This document shows positions 16,246 through 57,112 of a stretch of DNA of 64,000 nt, piece after piece. Every line of letters starts with the position of its first letter. Position 1 is the stretch's first letter. The position numbers and the translations under genes are program-made. The stretch comes from Arthrobacter endolithicus (GTDB lineage Bacteria; Actinomycetota; Actinomycetes; Actinomycetales; Micrococcaceae). Where the stretch lies: the NCBI RefSeq assembly GCF_026627425.1, contig NZ_JAPNLH010000018.1, positions 1 through 64,000 on the forward strand. Reading direction: 5' to 3'. The notes below the pieces were generated by a model. That model ran no database searches. It had not been told where the DNA came from and saw only the letters and a list, made by a program, of their open reading frames with translations.

Positions 16246-16475
16246 AGATCAAGACCATGGCGGGCTCCCTCGACGCCGCGACCGCCGCCTGTCCAGGCAG
16301 AAGAGGAATCTTTTCATAGGTTCAGCCTTACGCATCGGACCGGAGGTGCCGATAGAGCGTCTTGACCGGTGATGACGCGGGGACTCTTCTCATTGACGCC
16401 GCACACGCGATTTGGGATCCGCCACCAGCCGTACACGAGCCTGGCCCGCGATGTCCCTGATAAGAAAAAGTGGTT

Positions 16476-17744
16476 ATGAAAAAGTTTGCCCTCAGTGCCT
16501 CCGCCTTGCCGCTCGCTCTTGCCCTCGCTTTGGGGAGTGCATCCGTCCCGTTCACGAGTGCTTCCGCCGCTGTACCGACAGACACCGTAACTGTCGGAGC
16601 CGGATCAGACCTCATCCCTGTTATGCCCGACACACCCAAACCACCAGCGGATATGACCCTGCCAGCTGGGTCGGCGCTGATGCCGGCCGGCGCGGCGGGC
16701 AAAAATCCCGCGTCCGTCGAGGTGAATTCAGACTCCAGCGACATTTACGCCGCGCAGGTTCTCGACCTGATGAACGCCCAGCGGCGCAACGCGGGCGTGC
16801 CTGCGCTGCGCTGGAACCAGAAAGTCGCTAACGTCTCACAGGAATGGGCGAACCATCTGGGTGAAGCCACGAAGGACCCTAACTTTGATTGGGGGACCAT
16901 CCATCGGGCCGACGGTGGCGGCCCGGCGATTTCGGCTGGAGCGACGTGGTATGCCGAAATCATCGGTTTCAATTTCACGCCACGCAATATTGTTGACTGG
17001 TGGATGAATTCGCCATCACACAGGGCTGCCATGTTGGACGGCCGCGAAACAGATGCCGGCGTCGGCTATGTCGTGCCGGCCTCCGGGCCGTACGCGGGCT
17101 GGCATCTGGTCGTTTCCAATATGGCCGGCTATCGCTCTTCTGGACCTGCCCCGGTACCTGCCCCAGCTCCAGCGTCTTTCTTCGGTGACCTGAGTGCCGG
17201 GCAGCCGTTTCTCACTGAAATCAATTGGGTCGCTGATAAAAAGATCGCCACGGGCTGGACCGAGGCCAACGGAGCCAAAACGTACCGCCCCTTTGACTCG
17301 GTGAGCCGGGAGGCCATGGCTGCCTTCATGTACCGTCTTGCCGGATCACCTGCATACACGGCGCCTGCATCGTCCCCGTTCGCAGACGTCGCCACGGGGC
17401 AGCAGTTTTACAAAGAAATTGCCTGGCTCGCTTCGAGGAGGATTTCGACCGGCTGGACCGAAGCGGACGGAACCAGTACTTTCCGGCCGCAGCAGCCCGT
17501 CGAGCGGGATGTCATGGCTGCCTTCTTGTACCGTCTCTCCGGTTCGCCGTCGTACACGGCACCGAAGGTATCTGCGTTCGCTGACGTCTCCTCCGGCCAG
17601 CAGTTCTACAAAGAAATTGCCTGGCTGTCAGCCAGGGGCATTTCCAGCGGCTGGACCGAAGTCAACGGCACCCGGACCTTTAAATCAGTCCAAAGCGTCA
17701 ACCGCGATGCCATGGCCGCTTTCATGTACCGATGGGTCCACTGA
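16476..17744 (+). CDS. secreted CAP-domain protein with three SLH-like repeats
   Basis: An exported 422-residue protein. Residues 1-33 are a signal peptide (MKKFALSASALPLALALAL, cleavage near ASA-A). A CAP/SCP domain follows (about 88-220; NAQRRNAGVPALRWN, SPSHRAAMLDGRETDAGVGY), then a PVPAPAPAP linker and three S-layer-homology-like repeats, each F-x-D-...-EI-W-...-I-x-GW-TE...-TFRP...-R-AMAAF-YR. Such repeats bind cell-wall polymers. ATG 16476 is preferred over an in-frame GTG at 16470. The CAP role in actinobacteria is not settled (sterol, peptidase or nuclease activities have been proposed). Confidence 0.88.
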   Translation: MKKFALSASALPLALALALGSASVPFTSASAAVPTDTVTVGAGSDLIPVMPDTPKPPADMTLPAGSALMPAGAAGKNPASVEVNSDSSDIYAAQVLDLMNAQRRNAGVPALRWNQKVANVSQEWANHLGEATKDPNFDWGTIHRADGGGPAISAGATWYAEIIGFNFTPRNIVDWWMNSPSHRAAMLDGRETDAGVGYVVPASGPYAGWHLVVSNMAGYRSSGPAPVPAPAPASFFGDLSAGQPFLTEINWVADKKIATGWTEANGAKTYRPFDSVSREAMAAFMYRLAGSPAYTAPASSPFADVATGQQFYKEIAWLASRRISTGWTEADGTSTFRPQQPVERDVMAAFLYRLSGSPSYTAPKVSAFADVSSGQQFYKEIAWLSARGISSGWTEVNGTRTFKSVQSVNRDAMAAFMYRWVH

Positions 17745-18050: not shown

Positions 18051-18731
18051 GTGAATCGCATCGCGGTCGTCGAGGACGAGCCAGAGCTGGCCAGACTCCT
18101 CGGCCGCATCCTCTGTGGTGCCGGCCACACGGTCACGGTGGCCGGCACGGTGGCCGGTGCCTTGGCGGCAATCCGCACCGTCGACCCGGATCTGATCATT
18201 CTGGACCTCGTGCTGCCGGACGGACGCGGCGAGGACGTGCTCGCCGAACTAATGCGGTTCCGCCCGTTGAGCCGTGTCCTGGTGCTGTCATCGATGACGC
18301 AGGTGGCGACGCGTGTCGGTGTTTTGGAGGGCGGTGCGGTGGATTTTATGGCCAAACCGTTCGCCAACGCTGAGCTGTTGGCGCGGGTCAATGCCCGTAT
18401 CCGGACACCCGCGACGGCGGCGCAGGCATCGGCTGCAATGGTCCCCCGTTTCCTCCACATGGCCGGTGTCGAAATTGATGTGCAGCAGCGCGAACTTGTG
18501 GTCGACGGGCGCCACGTTCCATTGACCCATCGGGAGTTCGTGCTGCTGGCCTTCCTCCTCGAGCGGGCGCCCGAACCGTGCTCTCGAACCGAATTGCTCG
18601 AGCGCGTGTGGGGGACGAAATTCGATCCAGGCACGAACGTCGTGGACGTCTGTGTGCGCCGGCTGCGATCGAAACTCTCCAACGACAAGATAGAAACGGT
18701 GCGAAATGTCGGATATAGGATCGCGGCATAA
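18051..18731 (+). CDS. OmpR/PhoB-family response regulator
   Basis: A 226-residue two-component regulator. The receiver domain has acidic pocket residues Glu8-Asp9, phospho-acceptor Asp52 (IILDLVLPDG), the switch region SSMT and Lys in DFMAKPF. The winged-helix output domain (about 133-226) has the OmpR pattern LTHREFVLLAFLLE, RTELLERVWG, VDVCVRRLRSKL and VGYRIA. GTG start. Its last 26 bases overlap the sensor kinase gene, so the pair is co-translated. The adjoining copper-related genes on the other strand make metal sensing possible but unproven. Confidence 0.92.
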   Translation: MNRIAVVEDEPELARLLGRILCGAGHTVTVAGTVAGALAAIRTVDPDLIILDLVLPDGRGEDVLAELMRFRPLSRVLVLSSMTQVATRVGVLEGGAVDFMAKPFANAELLARVNARIRTPATAAQASAAMVPRFLHMAGVEIDVQQRELVVDGRHVPLTHREFVLLAFLLERAPEPCSRTELLERVWGTKFDPGTNVVDVCVRRLRSKLSNDKIETVRNVGYRIAA

Positions 18732-19812
18732 GGCCGTCCTTGCCGCCGCCTGGGCGGTATTCGCGGGAGTGAACTGCTACCTCACCTTTGCGCTGCCCGG
18801 CAAAGAGACCATCCCTTTTCACCTCGTGTGGGCCAGTTTCGCACTGCTGTACGGGCTGTGCACGTGGCCACGGCGGGCCACCCTGGTCGTCTTCGCCATC
18901 ATCACGACGGTAACGGGCATCGCGCTGGTCCGGCACGCAATGGCAGGGGTCATCGCGTGGGAAGAATGCAGCGAGACCGTCCTGATGGGCGGCATTGTCT
19001 CGCTGTTGATTTGGCACGTGAACCGGCAGTGGTCCGCTCAGGCCCGGTTGCGGGCGCTGCAGCAAGCCGACCGGCACCGCAGTGAGCAGCGGGAGAACGC
19101 AGCCAGGTTCGGTTCGCATGAGGTACGCACTCGGCTGACAATTGCCCGGGGCTACGCGCAACTCATCGCCGACCAGTCAGCCGATCCGACGGTGCAGGAG
19201 GACGCCGAGCTGGTGGTTGCCGAACTCGTCAAGGCGTCTGCTTTGGCCACCAACTTGCTTACGCTGGTCCGGGTTGTGGAACCGTCGTCCGCTGAACCGG
19301 TCAACGTCGACCGGATACTGACCGGTGTTTTGCGCAGATGGTCGGTCACTGCCGACCGGATCTGGAGTTCCCGGAGTACGGTCGGTACCGCGCAGGGCGA
19401 CAACGAACGGCTCGAGGCAATGCTGGATTGCCTGTTGGAGAATGCGGTCAAGTTCACCCGTCCGGGAGACTCTATTGCGATGACGGCGGATGCCGAGGGC
19501 GACGAGTTGGTCCTGACAGTGCGGGATAGCGGGACGGGTATACCGGCCGCGGAACTTGATGCCGTGTTCGAGATCTTCAGGACTGCGTCGACCGCAGGCG
19601 AGCGCGCCGGGAGCGGACTGGGCTTGGCCATCGTGAAGGCCGCCACGGAAGCCCGTGGGGGTACCGTTTCAGTGGCCAGCTCGCTCGGTGACGGAACCAC
19701 CTTCACCCTGCGCTTGCCGGTACAGCCAGTGCCACTTACTCCGGTCGGAGAACCCGCATCCGGCCCGAGTGGCCATGGTGCCCTCAGCGAGTCAGCGGAC
19801 GTGCTTAGCTGA
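18706..19812 (+). CDS. sensor histidine kinase
   Basis: A 368-residue membrane kinase. Residues about 9-105 contain four hydrophobic segments with very short external loops, so signal sensing may be intramembrane. The H box is FGSHEVRTRLTIARGY (His138), followed by ATP-binding motifs N box LENAVKFTRPG, G1 DSGTGIP, F box and G2 GSGLGLAIVKAA. The H box has E-V-R rather than the usual E-L-R/K-T-P: the proline is missing. The start overlaps the regulator gene by 26 bases. Confidence 0.9.
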   Translation: MSDIGSRHKAVLAAAWAVFAGVNCYLTFALPGKETIPFHLVWASFALLYGLCTWPRRATLVVFAIITTVTGIALVRHAMAGVIAWEECSETVLMGGIVSLLIWHVNRQWSAQARLRALQQADRHRSEQRENAARFGSHEVRTRLTIARGYAQLIADQSADPTVQEDAELVVAELVKASALATNLLTLVRVVEPSSAEPVNVDRILTGVLRRWSVTADRIWSSRSTVGTAQGDNERLEAMLDCLLENAVKFTRPGDSIAMTADAEGDELVLTVRDSGTGIPAAELDAVFEIFRTASTAGERAGSGLGLAIVKAATEARGGTVSVASSLGDGTTFTLRLPVQPVPLTPVGEPASGPSGHGALSESADVLS

Positions 19813-19876: not shown

Positions 19877-21562
19877 TCATCTCACGATGACCACATCGGC
19901 GACGGCTGCGGGCTGTTCCAACTCATTGATCCGGACGGCGGTGGTGATCTTCCACTGGCCCGCTACGGGGAGCACGACGACGGCCCGGTAACTGCCTGGC
20001 GTTGTTCCCGGCTCAACCTTGGCAGTCAGCGGTCCGAGGCTCAGATTAGGCTCCGCCACACTGACCTGCGGCATACTGAGCGGGACGATGGGCGCACCCC
20101 CAGCGTCGGTGAGGTCGAAGGTGATGACGTTGGCTCCTGCCGTACCAGGGCTGAACCGGCCGGTGAGGTGGCCGGTGCCGAGGTCGGCGACCACGGGCGT
20201 CCCAACCGCAGCCGGGTCAGCGGAGGTATCGGTTGCCCGCGGATTTTGCAGCGTCAGGGCCGAGGTGAGGCCAACGACCAGCACCACCCCAACCGCCTCC
20301 AGGCGGATGGCCAGTGCCAGCCGGCGCCAGGCTTCCCCCGTGATGGCCTCGCGCGCCAGGCGAGGGACCAGACCGAATCGGTTCCAGACCGCAAGCCCAC
20401 CGATCACCGCGACAACGCTAAGTTTGAGCAGCAGCAGCCGGCCGTAGGAGCTGCCGACGAGGGCCGTCGCGGAGCCGACCATCACCACGGCCAGGATGGT
20501 TCCGGTGATGCCCAACAGGACGACAAGACCACCGGCCAGGGTAGAGAACCGGCCCAGGACCACGGCAGCCTTGCCCGGATTATCCTTTCGCCGTCGGGCA
20601 CGTTTGACGTGCAGGATCAGGGCTACGAGGCCGCCCAGCCAGACTGCTGCTGTCGCGGCATGGACCAGGTCGGCGCCCATCACCAGCCAGCCGGGTCCGA
20701 AGGTGCGGGTGTGTCCGACGGGCAGCACGGAGGCCAGCGCCGTCCCGGCCCCCACAGTCCCGACCCAGAATCCTTCCCGACGCGGCAGACGCCCCCGGAG
20801 CAGCATCAGCGCAACCCCGGTCCCGGCGAGGAGCAGGGTCAATACGGCGCTCCCGGACCATCCGGGGGTGAGGGCCGTTGGTTGCAAGAGCGCACTAAGA
20901 CCCAACCCCAGCTCGCGCACCGCGGTGAGGGGCACCAGTACGACGTAGGCACAAACGGAGACGAGTGCGGCCGCCCGCGGCAGCAGGGGAGCTACAGCGG
21001 CGGTCCGGGCAACGAAAATATCGAAAACCGTCAGACCCACAAGATAGAACAGGCCCAGATAGCCCAACGCGGTGAGAACCCCGTACAGCACGTCCACGGG
21101 TCCTGTATAGCTTTTGGCGATGGTCGGGACCGATGCGCTGGCCCGGCCCACGATGAACGACAGCGTCCCGGACGCAGGGTGGGAGTCGGCGGAAATCACC
21201 CGCCAGCCGAGCGCGTAGCTGCCCTCGCCGAGGTTTGACGGCAGGTTTACCCGGACAATCGCGTCCACTTCCTCCCCAGACACCGTCCGGTGACCACCGC
21301 TGCCGTCATAGAGTTGGAGGCCATCGGGGATCAGGGAGACTTGCTCGTCGAAGGCGAGTTCCACCGCGGTGGGCGCCTGGGCGAGTACTGCGCCCTCAAC
21401 CGGTGTCGTGTAGAGCAGGGCGGAGTGCGCCAGGGCCGGGGCCGGGGGTGAGACCAGGATCAGAGTCAACGCCAGGAACAACAACGCCAGAAGCCGGCGG
21501 ACCAGTGGCCCACGGACTCGGGATGCCTGGTAGCGGATCTTATGGCCCGGTCTGCTCAACAT
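19877..21562 (-). CDS. CopC-CopD fusion copper-handling membrane protein
   Basis: A 561-residue copper uptake or resistance protein. After a signal segment ending ALA, the mature N terminus begins HSALLYTTPVEGAVL, the amino-terminal His of a CopC domain that binds Cu(II), with ISADSHPASGTLSF holding the second His. About eight CopD-type membrane helices follow (residues about 150-430) with GHTRTFGPGW and DLVHAATAAVWLGG. A C-terminal extracellular beta domain (YtkA-like) ends the protein. ATG 21562 has GAGG 8 bases upstream; ATG 21568 is too close to it. It lies downstream of the multicopper oxidase, to which it may deliver copper. Confidence 0.88.
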   Translation of the reverse strand: MLSRPGHKIRYQASRVRGPLVRRLLALLFLALTLILVSPPAPALAHSALLYTTPVEGAVLAQAPTAVELAFDEQVSLIPDGLQLYDGSGGHRTVSGEEVDAIVRVNLPSNLGEGSYALGWRVISADSHPASGTLSFIVGRASASVPTIAKSYTGPVDVLYGVLTALGYLGLFYLVGLTVFDIFVARTAAVAPLLPRAAALVSVCAYVVLVPLTAVRELGLGLSALLQPTALTPGWSGSAVLTLLLAGTGVALMLLRGRLPRREGFWVGTVGAGTALASVLPVGHTRTFGPGWLVMGADLVHAATAAVWLGGLVALILHVKRARRRKDNPGKAAVVLGRFSTLAGGLVVLLGITGTILAVVMVGSATALVGSSYGRLLLLKLSVVAVIGGLAVWNRFGLVPRLAREAITGEAWRRLALAIRLEAVGVVLVVGLTSALTLQNPRATDTSADPAAVGTPVVADLGTGHLTGRFSPGTAGANVITFDLTDAGGAPIVPLSMPQVSVAEPNLSLGPLTAKVEPGTTPGSYRAVVVLPVAGQWKITTAVRINELEQPAAVADVVIVR

Positions 21563-21597
21563 GATCATGTCCTCGTCCTGTGGGACAGTGCCCGGAC

Positions 21598-21643
21598 AAT
21601 GCTCACCGCCGCCCGGGACAAGGTCCGGGCGGCGGTGAGCATT
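21598..21643 (-). terminator. perfect 19-bp hairpin between the multicopper oxidase and CopCD genes
   Basis: Arms of 19 bases, from AATGCTCACCGCCG to its exact complement, flank an 8-base loop 11 bases after the oxidase stop codon. No T tract follows on the minus strand. It may terminate, or partly attenuate, transcription into copCD. Confidence 0.65.
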
Positions 21644-21653
21644 GCAGGCGGTG

Positions 21654-24600
21654 CTATTTGCCGGTCGTGAAGTTCCACGTGACAGGAGTCAGCAGGTTGC
21701 CGGCGGTGTCCTTGATCCTGCTGCTGAGGGTGATGGTGTACTGGGTGTAGGCCAGCAGCGTGCCGGTGGGGTTTAACGTTGCTACCTTCGTGGTACTAGA
21801 GTAGCTGGCTACCGAGGCGAAAGCGGCGCTGTTGGACGTCCGCTTGATGGTGAAGTTGGCGTTCGCCGCGGCCGTGCTGGGCAGCCCAGTGACCGCTTCG
21901 CTGAAGGTGGCGGTGATATTTGCCGTCCGGCTGACCCCGGTGGCGTTGACTGCCGGGGTTCGAGCCGTGACGACGGGGGCGGGACCGGTGATGAAGGTCC
22001 ACGTCTTGGTGGTGAGCGGGTTGCCGGCCACGTCCTTTACCGCGTTGCTCAGCGATAGCGTATAGGTGCGGTCACTGACCATGGGAGCGTCCGGGGTCAG
22101 TGTTGCGATTCGGGTGGTGGCGTTGTAGGTCACCTTTGAGGCGATGGTCGCTGTCCCCAGCTTCAGGGTGAAGTTGGGTGTGCTGGCAGCGGAGGTGGGT
22201 AGGCCCGTCACGGACTCACTGAACGTTGCGCTCAACGGAGTCCGTGTGGTGGTCGTTCCCAGACCGATGCCGGTCGCTCCGGCGGCGGGGTTGGTGGTGA
22301 TGACGGTCGGGCTGGGGCCGGTAATGAAGTCCCAGTTCGACGCCGCCAGCGAACCGCCCGATGCACTCTTGATGGCCGTGGTCACCGAGAGGGTGTAGCG
22401 CTTGTCGGCGGTGAGTGCCGCCGTCGGGACTAGAGTGGCTGTCCCTGTCGTCGCGCTGTAGGTCACGGAAGCAGGAACAGTGGTGGTGCCCTGCTTCAAG
22501 GTAAAGGTGTTGTTGCTGACGCCGGTAACCGTTTCGTTGAATGTAACGGTCGGCCGGACGTTGGTCGCCACCCCGGTCGCCCCTGATGCCGGGCTACTGG
22601 CGGTTACCTTTGGCGTGGTGGAAGCGGTGAGCGATGGAGCGGACAAAGTGTTCCCTGCCGCGTTCCACGCCGTGACCCTGTAGGCGTACTGCCCCGTCCC
22701 GGCTGTCTTGTCCGTGTAGGTGGTGATGTTGGCCAGTGTGGTGGCGATTTGGGTGTAGATCCCGACCGCGCCGTTGGTCAGCGGTGCGCGTTCGATCTTG
22801 TAGCCGATCTCGTTTTTCGCGTTGCCCCAGGTTGTGGGATCGGTGATCGACACAGGTGTCCCGTCGGTCCAGTTCAGCACCACGTCACTCGTGGGCCGAG
22901 TGAAGCTCACCACCGACGCGTCCGGTAGCGTGCGGGGCGCGCTGACCGAGATGGGCCGCATCATGTCCATCTCCTCGTGGCTGAGAATGTGGCAGTGCCA
23001 TACGTACTCCCAACCGAAGTTGGTCATGTCGTTAGTGATGGGGGTAATCGGATTACCGTTGGTGTCGGTGTTGTTGAAGCCGGCTTCGGATCCGTTCGGG
23101 CCCGTCGTCGATCCTTTGGCGCCCAGGGGCATCATCGGGTTCAGGGGCCGGTTACTGTCCGGGATTGCGAACGGGAGTTTAGGCAGGATCGGTCGAACCG
23201 CCACAATGGTGTCCTCCAATGGACTGACACGCACAGTGTCCTTCCAGCCGAGTTCTGTCGGTTCAGGGGGAATGATGATGTTGTCCCAGGTAACTCGGTT
23301 CAGCACCTGCACATCGTTTAGGTGGAAGTGCAGCGGGTGGGTGTCCACGCCGTTATGGGTGATCTTCCAGATCTGCGTCCCGTCTGCGTTGGTGGAGATG
23401 GGTGTCACGTTGAGGCTGTTCGTCCCCGCGGTGCCGTCCAGTTTTTCCGTGGCGGGGTTGACATACGGGTAGAGTATGACGTTTTGGAGCAGCGGAGTTG
23501 CTCCGGGTGCCTCCAACCCGATATTTCCGCTCATTCGGCCCCATTCGTCGAAATTCGCCGAGTTCATCTCGTCATGCACGCTCTTACCCTGGATGGGAAT
23601 GCTGAGCTGTGGCCCTGCTAAAGTGTCGAACTTGAACTGCTCTCCTCCTTGTTCGGCGATCCGGACCAGGCCGTCGCATTTGGCGGCAGGGTTGCTGGCC
23701 GCGTTGCAGTACCCGTTGCCGGCGAAAGTCTTCCCGTAGGCCTGGTTGTACGCGGCCTGACCGACGACGATCGGGTTCTGACTCGACTCGAAGACTCCTG
23801 CTGCTTTGCCTGCCGCGTCGGTGTGGTGATCGAACGCCGCCATCAGCTTGCCCATCTGATCAGCGGTGGTATTCGGCCGGTCGAAGGCCAGCGCGGGCGC
23901 GGCGTTCGAGATCTTGACCTGCATGACAGACCGGGTGTCGGGCCCGTAGCCGGGAAGGGTTGAAGGAGCGCCGGACGGAGCCATGTCCGGTCCACCGGTG
24001 TAGTAGTCGTAACCGGGTATCCGGCCCGGGAACGCCGCCGGGGCATCGTTGTAAAGGATCAGGGTCTTGCCCCTGTAAGCGGAGAAGTCGACGATCACGT
24101 CGGCGCGTTCGGCCGGGGCGAGCAACAGCGAGTGCTGGTCGACATTGCCGACGTCGAATCTGGTCGCGTCGGTGATAAACGTTGTCTCGTGGGCGGGGAC
24201 CACTGCCGGAGTCGGGAGGAAACCGCCCTCGTTACCGATTTGGATCCAGTCAGGGCCCTTCGGGCTCTTGGTGGTGTCCGGGGTCGGCATGACGACCGGG
24301 TCGGTCTGCGCCATCGAGACCTCGCTGGACTTCAGCGCTACCTCGGTACCGGTGGCAGGATCGGCGACGTACCAGGAAAGGTTCCAGAAACGATCGTCGG
24401 AGCCGTTGAGGATCCGGAATCTGTACGTCTTCGGGTCCATGGTTGTCGTGGGGTAGGCGGTGCCGTTCACCACAGGCGTGTCATGGAAGGCCTCCATACC
24501 GACCGAGTTGTTGGGAGTCGAGGGGATCAGCGCCGGCTCGCAGAAGGCAGCCGCGTTCGGGTCGCACTTGGGGTCGTAGTAGGGGTTGGCCATGGGCGGG

Positions 24601-27269
24601 TACTTGGCATCCTTGGCCGGTGGCCAGAACCACGGGCCGTAGAACCAGCGGCCGAACGCACTCATGCCGCTGGGGTCGCCGGGGTTCTGCGCGGGCATGT
24701 AGACGTGCGGCTGCCAGAGGTTGCCCTCACCGCCCCACTTCTTCGGGTCCCAGGTCGGATCGAGCTGGGCCATGCGCTTAGCGCTGGGCACGAAGGTCTT
24801 GTCCTGGATGGTGAGCTGGGTTCCCATGCCGAGACCGTCGAGGGCACCACCGGGGGCCATCAGCTTCTGCTCCGCGTCGTCGGTGATCATATAGCCGGCT
24901 TCCTCGCCCGCGTACACGTTGAGCCGTGTGATGCCCCACGAGTGGTCGTGGTAGAACATCATTCGCGCGCTCTGCTGGTTGGTATAGAAGAACGTCTCCG
25001 CACCGGGGCCGGGGTCTGGCATGTCCGGCACGTTGCTGACGCTGACACCCTTCGGGTAGGCGGTGTTCTCTCCGGTAGGGGTCACCCACTGGTGCGGCGT
25101 ACCGTCGCTGATCCACGGGGTGATACCGCCGTGCAGGTGCAAAGTGGCGCGGTTCTCCGAATAGCAGGTGGTCGGCTTGGGCGTCTGCCCGCACATTGGA
25201 TTGCGCACGCCGTCCAGGACGCTTTTTTCATCCTTGGCCATGTCCACCGGGATCTTGGTTTTGGGATCGAGCATCATCATATTCGGACCGGCACCGGCGC
25301 CCATTACCGAGGTGTCGACGGGGAGGAACAGATCGCCGGCTACGCCGGTGGGCAGCAGATTGCGGAACAGTACCCGGACGGGCTTGTTTTTCGTGGCGAT
25401 AATTGTCGGGCCGAGGTAGTGCGGATTGTCCACCCCGGCGAAGCTGATGGGACTGTCAGGCAGGGCAGGATCGAGGTTGGCGTTGCCGAGTACGACCTTT
25501 TTGCCCGGGACGACGCTGGTCGAGAGCTGGACGTAGCCACGCAGCAGAGTGGCCGGCAGGTCCCGGTGGAATTTCATCCGGTACTGCACCACCGCGATCT
25601 CGTAGTAGTCGGTGCCGGGGTAGGTAGTGGTGTCGGGCACCGCGACCGGGATGTACTGGCCCAGGTCGTTGGCGTTGGCCTCTCCCTGTCCTGGAAGGGT
25701 GTCAACAAACTTCTTGATTCCCGGGGTGAGGTAGCCCGCTCCGGGGCTGGTGACCACGATGTCAGTGACCGAGCCCTTGACCGCAACCTTGGCGGTGGCG
25801 CTGGCGCCCTTGTCTGCCGTGCCCACTGTGTCAGCGATTGTCACGGTCGGTGTGGAGCTGTAGCCGGCGCCGCCGTCGGTGACGTCGATGCGGGTGACGC
25901 CGATGGTGGCCTCGGCCTTGGCCGCCTGAGTGGGTAGCGTCTTGCTGGCATCGGTGAGGGTTACGGTAGGGGCGGAGGTGTACCCGCTGCCCGCGTTCGC
26001 TATCACGACGCCGGTGACCACTCCCTTAGAGTCCATCGTCGCGCTGCCCGTTGCCTGTTCGCCATCTGCGAGGTCAGGCTTGGAGAAGTTCACCAGCGGC
26101 TGGGTCTGATAGCCCGTGCCGCCGTCGGTCAACTTCAGGTTGTCGACTGCTCCGCTGGCCAGCGCATGCGCCTCGGAGCCCGCAGTGGGGTTCCCGCCCG
26201 TCAGCGTTACTGCTGGCGCGGTGAATCCGTAGCCGGTCTCGTTGACGTTGATGCCGGTGAGGACGCCGGTGGCAATCTTGGCGGTGGCCTTGGCCACCGT
26301 AGTCGGAGTGACTCCGGCGGTCGTGATCTCTACCGTGGGCGGGACGGCGTAGCCGTCACCCGGGCTGGTCACAGTAACACCGGAGATGGCGCCCGTCTTC
26401 GGGTCCACCGAGGCCGTAGCTTCCGCGCCGGTACCCGGATCGGTGATAGTCGGCGTGACTTCGGCCCCAAAGGAGTACGTGCGGTCGTGGGAGAAGTCCG
26501 GGTAGTTCGAGGCACCGAGCTTGATGGTGCTGTCCTTGGCTGGGGAAACGTTAGTGTTCAGCGTCGGGTCACCAGTTGCCGGTGTGCTCAAGGTGTCGCC
26601 GTTGGCCGGCACTTGTGTGTCGATCGGAATACCTTGACCGTAGAAGCCGATCACATCGTCCTTCTGCACCGGCACCGCCGGCACGGAATAGGTCGTGACC
26701 TCTCCGGTGTTCACGGTCGGTGTCGGAACCTTCAGCTCGTCGCTGGCGTAGACGACGGCGTACTCCCCGGCGGTGCCGGTGGGCCGCAGCACCAGGGCGT
26801 GGAAGAGGCTGCCGGCGGAGGGGGTCGGGCTCGCCCCCGCGGTGCCCTGGTTCCAGCTCTGAAAGTTGTTGAGCGTGCCGGCGGGCAGCTTGGCATGGTC
26901 CAGCACCACCAGAACCGGACCCAACTCACCAGTCGGCTTCGCGTAGTCGGTCGCGTAATTGCGTTTGGTCAGGGGGTTGCCGTACAGGACCGGTGTTGGG
27001 GTCCCGATGCTGATCTTCACCATCGCGTCCGCCAACGTCTGCGGGCTGTTTGCCCAGTTGGGGTACGGACCGAAGTAGTGCGGCACCTTCGTCATGTCGG
27101 TGCTGCTCGAGGGGATGGCGGCTGCGGCAATATCGGGTTGGAAGGGGGTGTGCATACCTCCCAAGGGGCCGATACTGCTGATCAACAGTGCCAGTACCAG
27201 GATGGCAGCCGGCCTGGCCAGGCGACGCCTCGGGGCCCGGTGGAAAGGGGGGCGGGCAGTCGGTTGCAT
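21654..27269 (-). CDS. giant secreted multicopper oxidase with GxGY repeats and Ig-like tail
   Basis: An exported 1871-residue copper oxidase. The N terminus is a long signal peptide. Residues about 285-515 hold six repeats of the form G-x-GY-x-x-P-x-V-x-I/L. The cupredoxin core has all four copper motifs: HLHGG near 709, FYHDHSWG near 771, HPLHFHLND near 1310 and HCHILSHEEMDMM near 1423, so type 1, 2 and 3 sites look complete. A fibronectin-III-like region (about 1470-1555) and three Big_5/Ig-like repeats of roughly 100 residues end the protein; no LPXTG anchor. Size and plan resemble the MofA-like manganese-oxidase group more than laccases or CopA. The substrate is inferred, not shown. Confidence 0.88.
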   Translation of the reverse strand: MQPTARPPFHRAPRRRLARPAAILVLALLISSIGPLGGMHTPFQPDIAAAAIPSSSTDMTKVPHYFGPYPNWANSPQTLADAMVKISIGTPTPVLYGNPLTKRNYATDYAKPTGELGPVLVVLDHAKLPAGTLNNFQSWNQGTAGASPTPSAGSLFHALVLRPTGTAGEYAVVYASDELKVPTPTVNTGEVTTYSVPAVPVQKDDVIGFYGQGIPIDTQVPANGDTLSTPATGDPTLNTNVSPAKDSTIKLGASNYPDFSHDRTYSFGAEVTPTITDPGTGAEATASVDPKTGAISGVTVTSPGDGYAVPPTVEITTAGVTPTTVAKATAKIATGVLTGINVNETGYGFTAPAVTLTGGNPTAGSEAHALASGAVDNLKLTDGGTGYQTQPLVNFSKPDLADGEQATGSATMDSKGVVTGVVIANAGSGYTSAPTVTLTDASKTLPTQAAKAEATIGVTRIDVTDGGAGYSSTPTVTIADTVGTADKGASATAKVAVKGSVTDIVVTSPGAGYLTPGIKKFVDTLPGQGEANANDLGQYIPVAVPDTTTYPGTDYYEIAVVQYRMKFHRDLPATLLRGYVQLSTSVVPGKKVVLGNANLDPALPDSPISFAGVDNPHYLGPTIIATKNKPVRVLFRNLLPTGVAGDLFLPVDTSVMGAGAGPNMMMLDPKTKIPVDMAKDEKSVLDGVRNPMCGQTPKPTTCYSENRATLHLHGGITPWISDGTPHQWVTPTGENTAYPKGVSVSNVPDMPDPGPGAETFFYTNQQSARMMFYHDHSWGITRLNVYAGEEAGYMITDDAEQKLMAPGGALDGLGMGTQLTIQDKTFVPSAKRMAQLDPTWDPKKWGGEGNLWQPHVYMPAQNPGDPSGMSAFGRWFYGPWFWPPAKDAKYPPMANPYYDPKCDPNAAAFCEPALIPSTPNNSVGMEAFHDTPVVNGTAYPTTTMDPKTYRFRILNGSDDRFWNLSWYVADPATGTEVALKSSEVSMAQTDPVVMPTPDTTKSPKGPDWIQIGNEGGFLPTPAVVPAHETTFITDATRFDVGNVDQHSLLLAPAERADVIVDFSAYRGKTLILYNDAPAAFPGRIPGYDYYTGGPDMAPSGAPSTLPGYGPDTRSVMQVKISNAAPALAFDRPNTTADQMGKLMAAFDHHTDAAGKAAGVFESSQNPIVVGQAAYNQAYGKTFAGNGYCNAASNPAAKCDGLVRIAEQGGEQFKFDTLAGPQLSIPIQGKSVHDEMNSANFDEWGRMSGNIGLEAPGATPLLQNVILYPYVNPATEKLDGTAGTNSLNVTPISTNADGTQIWKITHNGVDTHPLHFHLNDVQVLNRVTWDNIIIPPEPTELGWKDTVRVSPLEDTIVAVRPILPKLPFAIPDSNRPLNPMMPLGAKGSTTGPNGSEAGFNNTDTNGNPITPITNDMTNFGWEYVWHCHILSHEEMDMMRPISVSAPRTLPDASVVSFTRPTSDVVLNWTDGTPVSITDPTTWGNAKNEIGYKIERAPLTNGAVGIYTQIATTLANITTYTDKTAGTGQYAYRVTAWNAAGNTLSAPSLTASTTPKVTASSPASGATGVATNVRPTVTFNETVTGVSNNTFTLKQGTTTVPASVTYSATTGTATLVPTAALTADKRYTLSVTTAIKSASGGSLAASNWDFITGPSPTVITTNPAAGATGIGLGTTTTRTPLSATFSESVTGLPTSAASTPNFTLKLGTATIASKVTYNATTRIATLTPDAPMVSDRTYTLSLSNAVKDVAGNPLTTKTWTFITGPAPVVTARTPAVNATGVSRTANITATFSEAVTGLPSTAAANANFTIKRTSNSAAFASVASYSSTTKVATLNPTGTLLAYTQYTITLSSRIKDTAGNLLTPVTWNFTTGK

Positions 27270-27420
27270 GATATTTCCCCTAACAAGCGGAGCCCGGGAT
27301 TGCGGGCTCTATGTGATGAGGGTGCACCACCAACGGTCGAAGCGGGCCGTTTATGACATAAGTGTCATCTGGCCGGAAACGTCTGCTTCGTGGGCCTCGT
27401 CGCGGACTTGCGTGAGATTG

Positions 27421-27526: not shown

Positions 27527-29428
27527 GTGCAGTTCCACCACCACGGATATGTATCCGGTGACCCCCGCATCCAGACGGCGGCCGGGACCGGCATCGACCG
27601 TCCCGAGGAGCTTCCCAGCGAGGTGGATGTGCTCATTGTGGGCTCGGGGCCGGCCGGCATGCTCATCGCGGCCCAGCTGGCCCAGTTCCCGGACATCACC
27701 ACTCGCCTCGTGGAACGCCGCGGTGGGCGGCTGGAGCTCGGTCAGGCCGACGGCATCCAGGCCCGCAGCGTCGAGACCTTCCAGGCATTCGGTTTCGCCG
27801 AGCGGATCATTGCGGAGGCGTACTGGCTCACCGAAATGAACTTCTGGCGCCCGGGCGATGAAGACCCCCGGAACATCGTCCGCGGCGGTCGCGCGGTCGA
27901 CGACGCCACCGGCATCAGCGAATTCCCGCACCTCATCGTCAACCAGGCCCGCGTGCTCGACTACTTTGCCGAGGTCGCGGTGAACTCGCCCAGCCGCCTG
28001 ACCCCCGACTTTGGCTGGGACTTCCATACGCTCGAGGTCACCGACGAGGGCGAGTACCCCGTCAGGGTCACGCTGGTCCGCAGCGCCGGACCGGACGAGG
28101 GCACCGAGCGCATCATACACGCCAAGTACGTCGTCGGCTGCGACGGCGCACGTAGCAAGGTCCGCGCCTCGATCGGCTGCACCCTTGCCGGCGACGCTGC
28201 CAACCACGCCTGGGGAGTCATGGATGTGCTGGCCAAGACCGACTTCCCCGACATCCGCACCAAGTGCGCCATCCAATCCCACGACGGCGGATCCATCCTG
28301 CTGATCCCGCGCGAGGGCGGCCATCTCTTCCGGATGTACGTGGACTTGGGTGAGGTGCCTGAAGACGATCGCGGCGCCGTGCGCAAGACCAGCATCGAGC
28401 AGATCATCGCCAAGGCGAACGAGATCATGCACCCGTATTCCGTGGATGTGCGCAGCGTTGCCTGGCACAGCGTCTACGAGGTTGGCCACCGCCTCACCGA
28501 CCGGTTCGACGACGTCCTGGCGCAGGACCGCGGCACCCGCAGCCCGCGCGTCTTTATCACCGGCGACGCTTGCCACACGCACAGCGCCAAGGCCGGCCAG
28601 GGCATGAACGTCTCCATGCAGGACGGCTTCAATCTTGGCTGGAAACTGGGTCACGTGCTTGAGGGCCGGAGCCCTGAGTCACTGCTGGACACTTACTCCG
28701 CCGAGCGCCAGGTCGTAGCCAAGAATCTTATCGACTTCGACAAGCAATGGTCGACGATGATGGCTAAGAAGCCCGAGGAATTCGCCAACCCCACGGAGCT
28801 GGAGGACTTTTATGTGCGCACTGCCGAGTTCCCGGCCGGGTTCATGACGCAGTACACGGGCTCGCTGCTCACCTCCGCTGACGCCGACCAGGAACTGGCC
28901 ACAGGGTTCCCGCTCGGCAAGCGCTTCAAGTCCGCGCGTGTCTCCCGCGTCTGCGACACCAACGCCCTCCACCTGGGTCACCAGGCCACCGCCGACGGCC
29001 GCTGGCGCATCTACGTCTTCGCCGATGCGGCCAAGCCCGGGGCCGCCTCGCCCACCACTGATTTGGCGCAATGGCTCGCGAGCGCTCCGGAATCGCCACT
29101 GGCCGCCACACCCCAAGGGCTCGACGCCGACGCCTGGTTCGATGTGAAGGTCATCTACCAGCAGAAGCACGAGGACATCGACATCAACGCGGTGCCGGAA
29201 GTGTTCAAGCCCGAGGTCGGGCCATTCGAGCTCACCGACCTCGAAAAGGTTTACGGCGTCGTCGAGAGTGATGACATCTTCGATACACGGGGGCTGTCCC
29301 GCGACGGCGTGGTCGTCGTCGTACGCCCGGACCAGTACGTAGCGAACATCCTGCCGCTGACCGCGACCGCTGAACTGGGCGAGTTCTTCGCTCCCGTGCT
29401 GTCGGGGACAAGGGCCAGAACGGTCTGA
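27527..29428 (+). CDS. mobA: FAD-dependent 3-hydroxybenzoate 4-monooxygenase-like enzyme
   Basis: Uses NADPH and oxygen to hydroxylate an aromatic ring, probably 3-hydroxybenzoate to protocatechuate. 633 residues with the Rossmann GSGPAGMLIAAQLA near residue 40, the GD fingerprint GDACHTHSAKAGQGMN near 350, the DG motif CDGARSKVR, and the C-terminal thioredoxin-like domain (about 450-630) of the phenol hydroxylase group. N terminus MQFHHHGYVSGDP, LGQADGI, and the tail VVVVRPDQYVANILPL closely match MobA of Comamonas as I recall it; phenol 2-monooxygenase is the alternative. GTG start with GAGGAG upstream. Followed by iclR and an MHS transporter gene on the other strand. Confidence 0.85.
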   Translation: MQFHHHGYVSGDPRIQTAAGTGIDRPEELPSEVDVLIVGSGPAGMLIAAQLAQFPDITTRLVERRGGRLELGQADGIQARSVETFQAFGFAERIIAEAYWLTEMNFWRPGDEDPRNIVRGGRAVDDATGISEFPHLIVNQARVLDYFAEVAVNSPSRLTPDFGWDFHTLEVTDEGEYPVRVTLVRSAGPDEGTERIIHAKYVVGCDGARSKVRASIGCTLAGDAANHAWGVMDVLAKTDFPDIRTKCAIQSHDGGSILLIPREGGHLFRMYVDLGEVPEDDRGAVRKTSIEQIIAKANEIMHPYSVDVRSVAWHSVYEVGHRLTDRFDDVLAQDRGTRSPRVFITGDACHTHSAKAGQGMNVSMQDGFNLGWKLGHVLEGRSPESLLDTYSAERQVVAKNLIDFDKQWSTMMAKKPEEFANPTELEDFYVRTAEFPAGFMTQYTGSLLTSADADQELATGFPLGKRFKSARVSRVCDTNALHLGHQATADGRWRIYVFADAAKPGAASPTTDLAQWLASAPESPLAATPQGLDADAWFDVKVIYQQKHEDIDINAVPEVFKPEVGPFELTDLEKVYGVVESDDIFDTRGLSRDGVVVVVRPDQYVANILPLTATAELGEFFAPVLSGTRARTV

Positions 29429-56969: not shown

Positions 56970-57112
56970 CCACCCATTCTGGCCGATCGCGTCCGGATAG
57001 TGCGCCAAATGACAACAGTGTGATTCCCGATTATCATGGGGAGCAGCCGACTGCCCGAACCAAATGCCGCTGCCTTGCCTGCGCCGTTGCCTGAACCCGA
57101 AGGGAAGTGTGC

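Follow-up and report, generated by a model that had tools for sequence, protein, structure and literature searches.

The 64,000 nt stretch of Arthrobacter endolithicus DNA analysed here (the window) encodes a giant secreted multicopper oxidase (MCO) of 1871 aa (21654-27269, minus strand), and we propose that this gene is switched by a neighbouring two-component system (TCS) through a CusR-type box in its promoter. That soil actinobacteria may use such a TCS and box to control a giant extracellular MCO is the best-supported new claim of this study, and we regard the regulatory half of our reading, in which the neighbouring TCS would control the MCO via the predicted box, as probable. The explanation as a whole, namely a TCS-switched secreted giant oxidase of a MofA/OmpB-like clade that would carry out protective extracellular metal oxidation, is given a probability of about 0.5. 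Among the papers listed from the open-licence literature with the terms used, neither a MofA-type MCO of actinobacteria nor a CusR-type box at a gene of this kind was named in any title.

A two-component system and a CusR-type box at the MCO gene

The TCS comprises an OmpR-family response regulator (RR; 18051-18731, plus strand), identified by Pfam and by comparison of its recognition helix, and a sensor histidine kinase (HK; 18706-19812, plus strand), identified by Pfam and hydropathy. The candidate binding site is a perfect inverted repeat of the CusR/CopR type, ATGACA-N4-TGTCAT, which lies at 27353-27368 (minus strand), 84-99 nt upstream of the MCO start codon, and reads ATGACACTTATGTCAT. 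It is the sole perfect copy in the window, with 0 in 100 shuffles; sites with at most two mismatches numbered 5 versus 1.4 expected, so that weak sites mean little. A near-perfect second box (one mismatch) was seen at 57009-57024, far from the MCO locus.

The best 80 matches of 234 relatives, taken from a scan of genome contigs and representing 77 loci, were compared with the window. In 10 of the 12 close relatives (L005-L016) orthologous RR and HK genes adjoin the MCO gene (RR 65-90%, HK 70-88%), and 10 of the 12 carry the perfect box at an equal distance from the start codon; the box is absent in L012 and L014, the latter having neither an orthologous RR nor an HK beside its MCO. Across 11 box-bearing promoters the longest stretch without any variation is TGTCATAAA, in an alignment that excludes L012 and L014 and in which the identity of the box itself is by selection. 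Seven more loci, six from Streptomycetaceae and one from a Nocardioides bin, have an RR (42-50%) and an HK (34-37%) upstream of the MCO gene and divergent from it, a gene order unlike that of the window. In all six Streptomycetaceae loci the gap that separates the divergent RR gene from the MCO gene contains the box, with zero to two mismatches, and the box ranks with the best-conserved blocks of that promoter. In five of the seven genomes with divergent loci, which were all of those searched, the MCO-adjacent RR (adjacency being derived from contig coordinates) is the genome's best of 14-26 RR matches each, with bit scores, against the next match, of 194 versus 116 in G013 and 161 versus 153 in Nocardioides.

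Counted over 70 usable loci (7 of the 77 were not used), a box within two mismatches, a cut chosen after the box results had been seen, stands in 16 of 17 loci with the TCS versus 2 of 53 without it, shuffles giving 12 of 1400; the Fisher p of 1e-12 for this association overstates independence, each of the two TCS-bearing clades being made up of near relatives. Weaker RR or HK matches (24-38%) in L020, L035, L042, L051, L059, L061 and L064 were counted as none. A search for the perfect box in eleven genomes, with 0 matches to the backward control pattern, found a single copy, at the MCO gene, in Arthrobacter terrae (G010), Cryobacterium MP_M3 (G011), C. breve (G069) and Kitasatospora (G065). 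Two copies are present in G068, one of them at the MCO, one copy each away from the MCO in G012 and G066, and none in G013, G062 and G064. The window's own genome has three, and since the two besides that of the MCO lie inside open frames, a wider regulon is not claimed. An RR orthologue (E <= 1e-45) was found in 9 of 14 genomes searched, all nine of which have the MCO and the box. G012 (locus L014) and G070 (L017) have kept the MCO, with the RR orthologue missing and no box at the MCO promoter; three genomes of the same genus lack both the MCO and the RR orthologue.

The TCS, which the original prediction named only briefly, appears to be a stronger link to the MCO than the CopC-CopD fusion (CopCD; 563 aa; 19877-21568, minus strand; Pfam CopC E 3.4e-20, CopD E 4.8e-19), which together with the MCO makes up the range 19877-27269 of the original prediction, two genes that both lie on the minus strand. 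Its CopC part starts with a histidine after a likely signal (ALA-HSALL, by eye). The pairing of MCO and CopCD claimed there stands as far as the direct downstream position and the adjacency of a full-length CopCD in 10 of the 12 close relatives are concerned, but this holds in only 1 of 65 others, some of them on short contigs, and a hairpin separates the two genes. With L007 having no CopCD and L005 a best match of only 124 residues, the idea of an obligate partner is weakened, and because of the patchy adjacency and the intervening hairpin we consider CopCD a common but not invariable neighbour of the MCO. In these two Cryobacterium loci CopCD has apparently decayed or gone, the MCO, TCS and box being retained. 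The hairpin, found by folding, is G+C-rich with a 21-pair stem (21596-21645, minus strand) and lies between the MCO stop and the CopCD start; the stretch 21575-21660 folds at -57.8 kcal/mol (z -8.1), and the structure is terminator-like without a T run. The 110 nt downstream of the MCO in all 12 close relatives fold at -46.9 to -73.0 kcal/mol, values that are without shuffle control. The stem in L011 looks different by eye.

Copper as the likeliest signal

Copper would be the likeliest signal of this TCS, because of the CusR-type box, the likeness of the RR helix and the precedent of CopRS and copO in Corynebacterium glutamicum. The ATGACA-N4-TGTCAT pattern was present, as a control, in the E. 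coli cusR-cusC intergenic region (ATGACAATTTTGTCAT), and CopR/CusR sites are given as TGACA-N4-TGTCA and AAAATGACAAnnTTGTCATTTT in the excerpts available of two reports (PMC12428095, PMC11195947). The window shares with CusRS and CopRS of E. coli and Pseudomonas the box and a similar recognition helix, whereas its HK is without a large extracytoplasmic sensor domain and its target is a giant MCO in place of an efflux or cop operon. According to the portion available of its description (PMC3140484), CopRS of C. glutamicum acts at a single site to activate a region that includes copO, an MCO gene. Both systems are actinobacterial and have a TCS beside a secreted MCO gene, and the one CopRS binding site in the C. 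glutamicum genome may be likened to the single promoter box of the window, although the C. glutamicum site is a direct repeat (TGAAGATTTnnTGAAGATTT) and the window box is TGACA-N4-TGTCA. CopO is an MCO of ordinary size.

Besides the overstated independence of the TCS-box association and the missing or shortened CopCD of L007 and L005, several points weigh against a copper-responsive TCS that governs this oxidase. Most of the clade has neither TCS nor box; Nocardioides L048 has the TCS yet no box (four mismatches); and Humibacillus L012 keeps CopCD and a related HK (51%) with no box, its adjacent RR (37%) being neither an orthologue nor the best RR match of that genome. CueO has a Met-rich insert between copper motifs 3 and 4, and no such insert was seen by eye between these motifs of the MCO. 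The HK has no large extracytoplasmic sensor loop, with two hydrophobic stretches above threshold by simple hydropathy, and over the whole RR the lead of CusR is narrow (37% versus 28-35%, among eight E. coli regulators only). In the recognition helix, compared with the same eight, HprR (61%) stands slightly above CusR (56%; six others 22-44%), and the signal thus need not be copper; HprR uses CusR's box. Finally, copper and zinc regulators of Pseudomonas share one palindrome, although of another sequence (ATTCATnnATGTAAT), in the excerpt available of PMC11195947. The loop-less HK, the helix slightly closer to HprR and a palindrome that can serve both copper and zinc regulators would suit a TCS and box that answer another signal, such as peroxide or hypochlorite, zinc, or envelope stress, the oxidase then serving general envelope protection or matrix building; we hold this to be unlikely, given that CopCD is adjacent in 10 of the 12 close relatives and that the target is a copper enzyme.

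Architecture of the giant MCO

The giant MCO, identified by its open reading frame, Pfam, motifs and hydropathy, bears out the earlier observation of an unusually long oxidase with four copper motifs, repeats and Big_5 domains, beside CopCD and a two-component system; its length is 3.6 times that of CotA, the best solved relative (513 aa). A hydrophobic N-terminal signal (residues 16-34) is followed by a conserved VPHYFGPYPNWANSP segment, an all-beta insert (~92-280), the GxGY repeats (~285-520), a CotA-type core (~536-1470), an FN3-like stretch and three Ig-like Big_5 domains (residues 1552-1871; 21657-22616, minus strand). Pfam recovers the three Big_5 stretches (E 9.7e-43) and Cu-oxidase_2 (E 1.4e-10), whereas the FN3-like region that had been predicted beside them was recognised by eye only, with no Pfam FN3 match at E <= 0.1. 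The four copper motifs are HLHG at 711, HDH at 774, HPLHFH at 1311 and HCHILSHEEMDM at 1425, and the axial Met is as in CotA according to a motif-by-motif alignment (E 8.2e-37). Judged from its sequence, the MCO is a three-domain CotA-type fold with all ligand motifs and an export signal; the AlphaFold model of the core (43 sequences) had a mean pLDDT of 63.6, and the reading of the fold is not based on it. The copper core with its motifs is common to CotA, CueO, PhsA and the window MCO, and the axial Met to CotA and the window MCO. In contrast to this shared core, the window protein falls far under the NCBIfam cut-offs of the nearest model, PhsA (E 7.9e-31, yet 107 bits versus 950), and of CueO (39 bits versus 525).

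There are seven Cys, at 693, 702, 902, 910, 1188 and 1198 and as the type 1 ligand at 1426. The tail from residue 1471 has a computed isoelectric point of 9.9, the three preceding parts 4.6-5.1. A Met-rich stretch before copper motif 1 (residues 656-666) might be a Cu(I) site; its M656, G657 and G659 are invariant in 43 aligned rows. The window's own genome has no second copy of the giant MCO, and a search with Cu-oxidase PF00394 found three further MCO-type frames there, of 501-515 aa.

A phage-virion-type repeat arm

Six GxGY repeats had been described before the core, of which five are strict (residues 304, 384, 427, 467 and 510; segment 285-520, 25710-26417, minus strand); the sixth there is only a degenerate unit, NETGYGF at about residue 344, recognised by eye. 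A sixth strict GxGY lies within the core, at 1184. Shuffled copies of the MCO contained 0.48 GxGY on average and 3 at most (n=2000). No Pfam match was obtained for the segment, among 22 rows there was a single weak one (E 0.41), and no credible PDB sequence match was found. Sequence matches do occur to PHROGs families of virion structural, head closure, tail fibre and baseplate proteins (19630, 460, 701, 5342 and 708; E down to 8.5e-23). The model of residues 44-536 (pLDDT 78.4) is almost entirely beta and had zero PDB structure matches and 27 viral-model matches at E <= 0.001, the latter with low TM-scores and, where named, mostly proteins of cyanophages and uncultured Caudovirales. Phage virion GxGY proteins and the MCO segment thus share sequence and fold matches, and the difference is that in the window the repeats stand before an oxidase core in a bacterial genome. 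In the arm, a virion module of phages for which Pfam has no model is joined to a secreted redox enzyme, and for the GxGY and Big_5 arms we infer an adhesive or spacer role. The inserted all-beta N-terminal domain (residues ~92-280; 26430-26996, minus strand), delimited by alignment and without a Pfam match, occurs in 9 of the 22 rows that were selected for alignment, the window counted.

A clade of large MCOs and its kinship to MofA and OmpB

Copper motifs 1 and 4 served to select a usable open frame, which exists in 76 of the 77 loci, the broken L063 being left out. All 76 have the four copper motifs (1 and 4 having been used in the selection) and the axial Met, and their stop-to-stop frames measure 1313-2477 aa, some of them cut by contig ends. 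At least two GxGY units precede motif 1 in 68 of them and at least three in 66; five of the eight repeat-less relatives are Geobacteraceae (Geomonas, Citrifermentans). Big_5-like copies occur in 13 of the 76, using a model built on the window's three domains, and core identity to the window is 56-92% in 42 aligned relatives.

In a tree of 91 of 121 rows, from which near-copies and some partial rows had been removed and which was made by a quick method with warnings on long outgroup branches, the window MCO falls inside a 78-row large-MCO clade (SH-aLRT 100) that spans Actinomycetota, Chloroflexota, Geobacteraceae and others. Its closest relatives, L005-L016, are from Arthrobacter, Cryobacterium and another Microbacteriaceae (82-93%) and from Humibacillus (73%; best segments in each case). 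Arthrobacter rows stand at two places among Cryobacterium rows, with mixed supports of 82-100 there, which suggests that the giant MCO has been transferred between families. It is present in 2 of 5 genomes of the genus, the window's own included; the second (G004) has the same locus as Arthrobacter terrae L015.

The clade splits into a six-row Geobacteraceae branch (SH-aLRT 99) and, as its sister, the remaining 72 rows. Eight stretches around Geomonas-family MCO genes were fetched, and a search for FKBP, the type of protein encoded by mofB, covered L110, L112, L113, L114 and L117 of this branch: an FKBP_N gene adjoins the MCO in L110, L113 and L114, one of the three being a full FKBP, and none was seen beside the MCO in L112 and L117. 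A Desulforhabdus locus (L051, 7812-18560) has a giant MCO, then a CCP_MauG di-haem cytochrome, a second MCO and an FKBP, that is, mofA-, mofC- and mofB-type parts, and its giant MCO falls in a 60-row group that also holds that of the window. As the window MCO shares a clade with MCOs of mofB/mofC-type loci, its kinship to the MofA/OmpB group appears well supported, MofA and OmpB themselves being compared by description only. In the Geomonas family, 30 of 48 genomes match the Geomonas giant MCO at E <= 1e-50; one has tandem copies (G052:C1:9882-18764), and the matches in two others contain an in-frame TAA (G025:C2:1009887, G038:C5:107693).

The window MCO shows the traits of the large-MCO family, a single exported chain of more than 1200 aa with four copper motifs and a signal-like N-terminus. 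MofA of Leptothrix discophora and OmpB of Geobacter sulfurreducens are likewise very long exported MCOs, OmpB is homologous to MofA and has an FN3 domain (PMC5566968), to which the FN3-like stretch seen by eye in the window MCO may correspond, and the group shares one clade with Geobacteraceae members, some of which have FKBP neighbours. The window differs in its Gram-positive actinobacterial host, in the GxGY repeats and three Big_5 domains of its MCO, and in having CopCD and a TCS in place of mofB and mofC, neither mofB (FKBP/Mip; the product is called Mip in the passage available of PMC8218464) nor mofC (cytochrome c) being found among the genes beside the MCO. In addition, OmpB, unlike what we propose for the window MCO, is linked to Fe(III) reduction.

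The original prediction of a MofA-type manganese oxidase thus holds for family kinship, by the 78-row clade and the mofB/mofC-type loci, whereas Mn(II) oxidation as stated there is not supported. The outcome named there as refuting it, a core closest to ordinary spore-coat laccases or CopA with no homologues that bear the repeats, did not occur: the core does match spore-coat CotA best in the PDB, but most homologues (68 of 76) have the repeats. A MofA-type oxidase of Mn(II), or Fe(II), would surround the cell with deposits of Mn(III/IV) or Fe(III) oxide, its arms would hold the mineral or matrix, and copper control would merely secure the copper supply of the enzyme. We consider this an improbable alternative, despite the clade that the window MCO shares with Geobacteraceae MCOs, three of them beside a mofB-type FKBP, and with the Desulforhabdus locus, since neither mofB nor mofC accompanies the window MCO and the box points to copper or heavy metals. 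Many members of the large-MCO clade belong to anaerobic lineages, which also counts against it, and copper reportedly stimulates Mn oxidation in L. discophora (by the title of a cited paper, Brouwers 2000), which counts for it. The literature on MofA itself is divided: MofA, the homologue of OmpB, is listed among known Mn oxidases (PMC13386937) but called only putative elsewhere (PMC5566968), and in L. ochracea Fe versus Mn is unclear (PMC11412304). Antarctic soil Arthrobacter isolates do oxidise Mn(II), but Mn oxidation by Antarctic Arthrobacter oxydans dropped when reactive oxygen species were scavenged, according to the part available of PMC8533519.

Proposed mechanism

In the explanation that we prefer, protective metal oxidation under TCS control, the HK would sense metal stress, most likely copper, at the membrane, and the phosphorylated RR would bind ATGACA-N4-TGTCAT and activate the MCO promoter. 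Once exported, the oxidase would stay attached outside the cell through its GxGY and Big_5 arms, and CopC-CopD might help to handle copper for the enzyme or copper released around it. Type 1 copper would accept electrons from a small reductant and the trinuclear site would reduce O2 to water, so that the likeliest job would be protective extracellular oxidation, of Cu(I) to Cu(II) first. We put Cu(I) forward as a tentative substrate; Fe(II) and Mn(II) are possible ones.

A large laccase for soil aromatics, oxidising phenols, humics or lignin fragments in the manner of CotA and PhsA with arms that bind the cell wall or plant and humic matter, is doubtful: CotA is the closest solved relative, with bilirubin oxidase and phenoxazinone synthase lower in the list, PhsA is the nearest NCBIfam model, and a phenol-hydroxylase-type FAD monooxygenase gene (27527-29428, plus strand; Pfam) is divergent beside the MCO, but among L004-L081 this gene has a match in the window's own locus alone, and neither a copper-type box nor CopCD suggests aromatic catabolism. 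With zero matches in the other compared loci, a link of the MCO to the monooxygenase is rejected. An ordinary laccase is likewise rejected as a full account, because length class and motifs are common to the 76 relatives and repeats to 68 of them, although the best PDB match of the core is CotA.

More tentatively, the TCS-controlled oxidase may represent an undescribed soil-actinobacterial regulon, in which a metal-sensing TCS would be devoted to a giant MCO through one CusR-type box, kept in Micrococcales-type bacteria and Streptomycetaceae despite gene reshuffling, with a phage-tail-type GxGY arm that would anchor the oxidase to surfaces or mineral. Such a regulon, if real, would tie the extracellular oxidation of metal within the MofA/OmpB clade to the sensing of copper, and MofA-type enzymes would gain a genetically tractable aerobic host. 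Geochemists concerned with manganese and iron have long asked what giant MCOs of the MofA/OmpB type do. By the present analysis these belong to a broad clade that extends to actinobacteria which can be cultured, and there the single predicted regulator site of a promoter, together with the TCS next to it, might serve as a handle.

Other neighbours in the window

Beside the TCS lies a gene for a secreted CAP-domain protein with SLH repeats (16470-17744, plus strand), and such a protein is also encoded near the TCS in Arthrobacter terrae L015 (84%). Other neighbours in the window, recognised by eye, include IclR-type and MFS-type genes.

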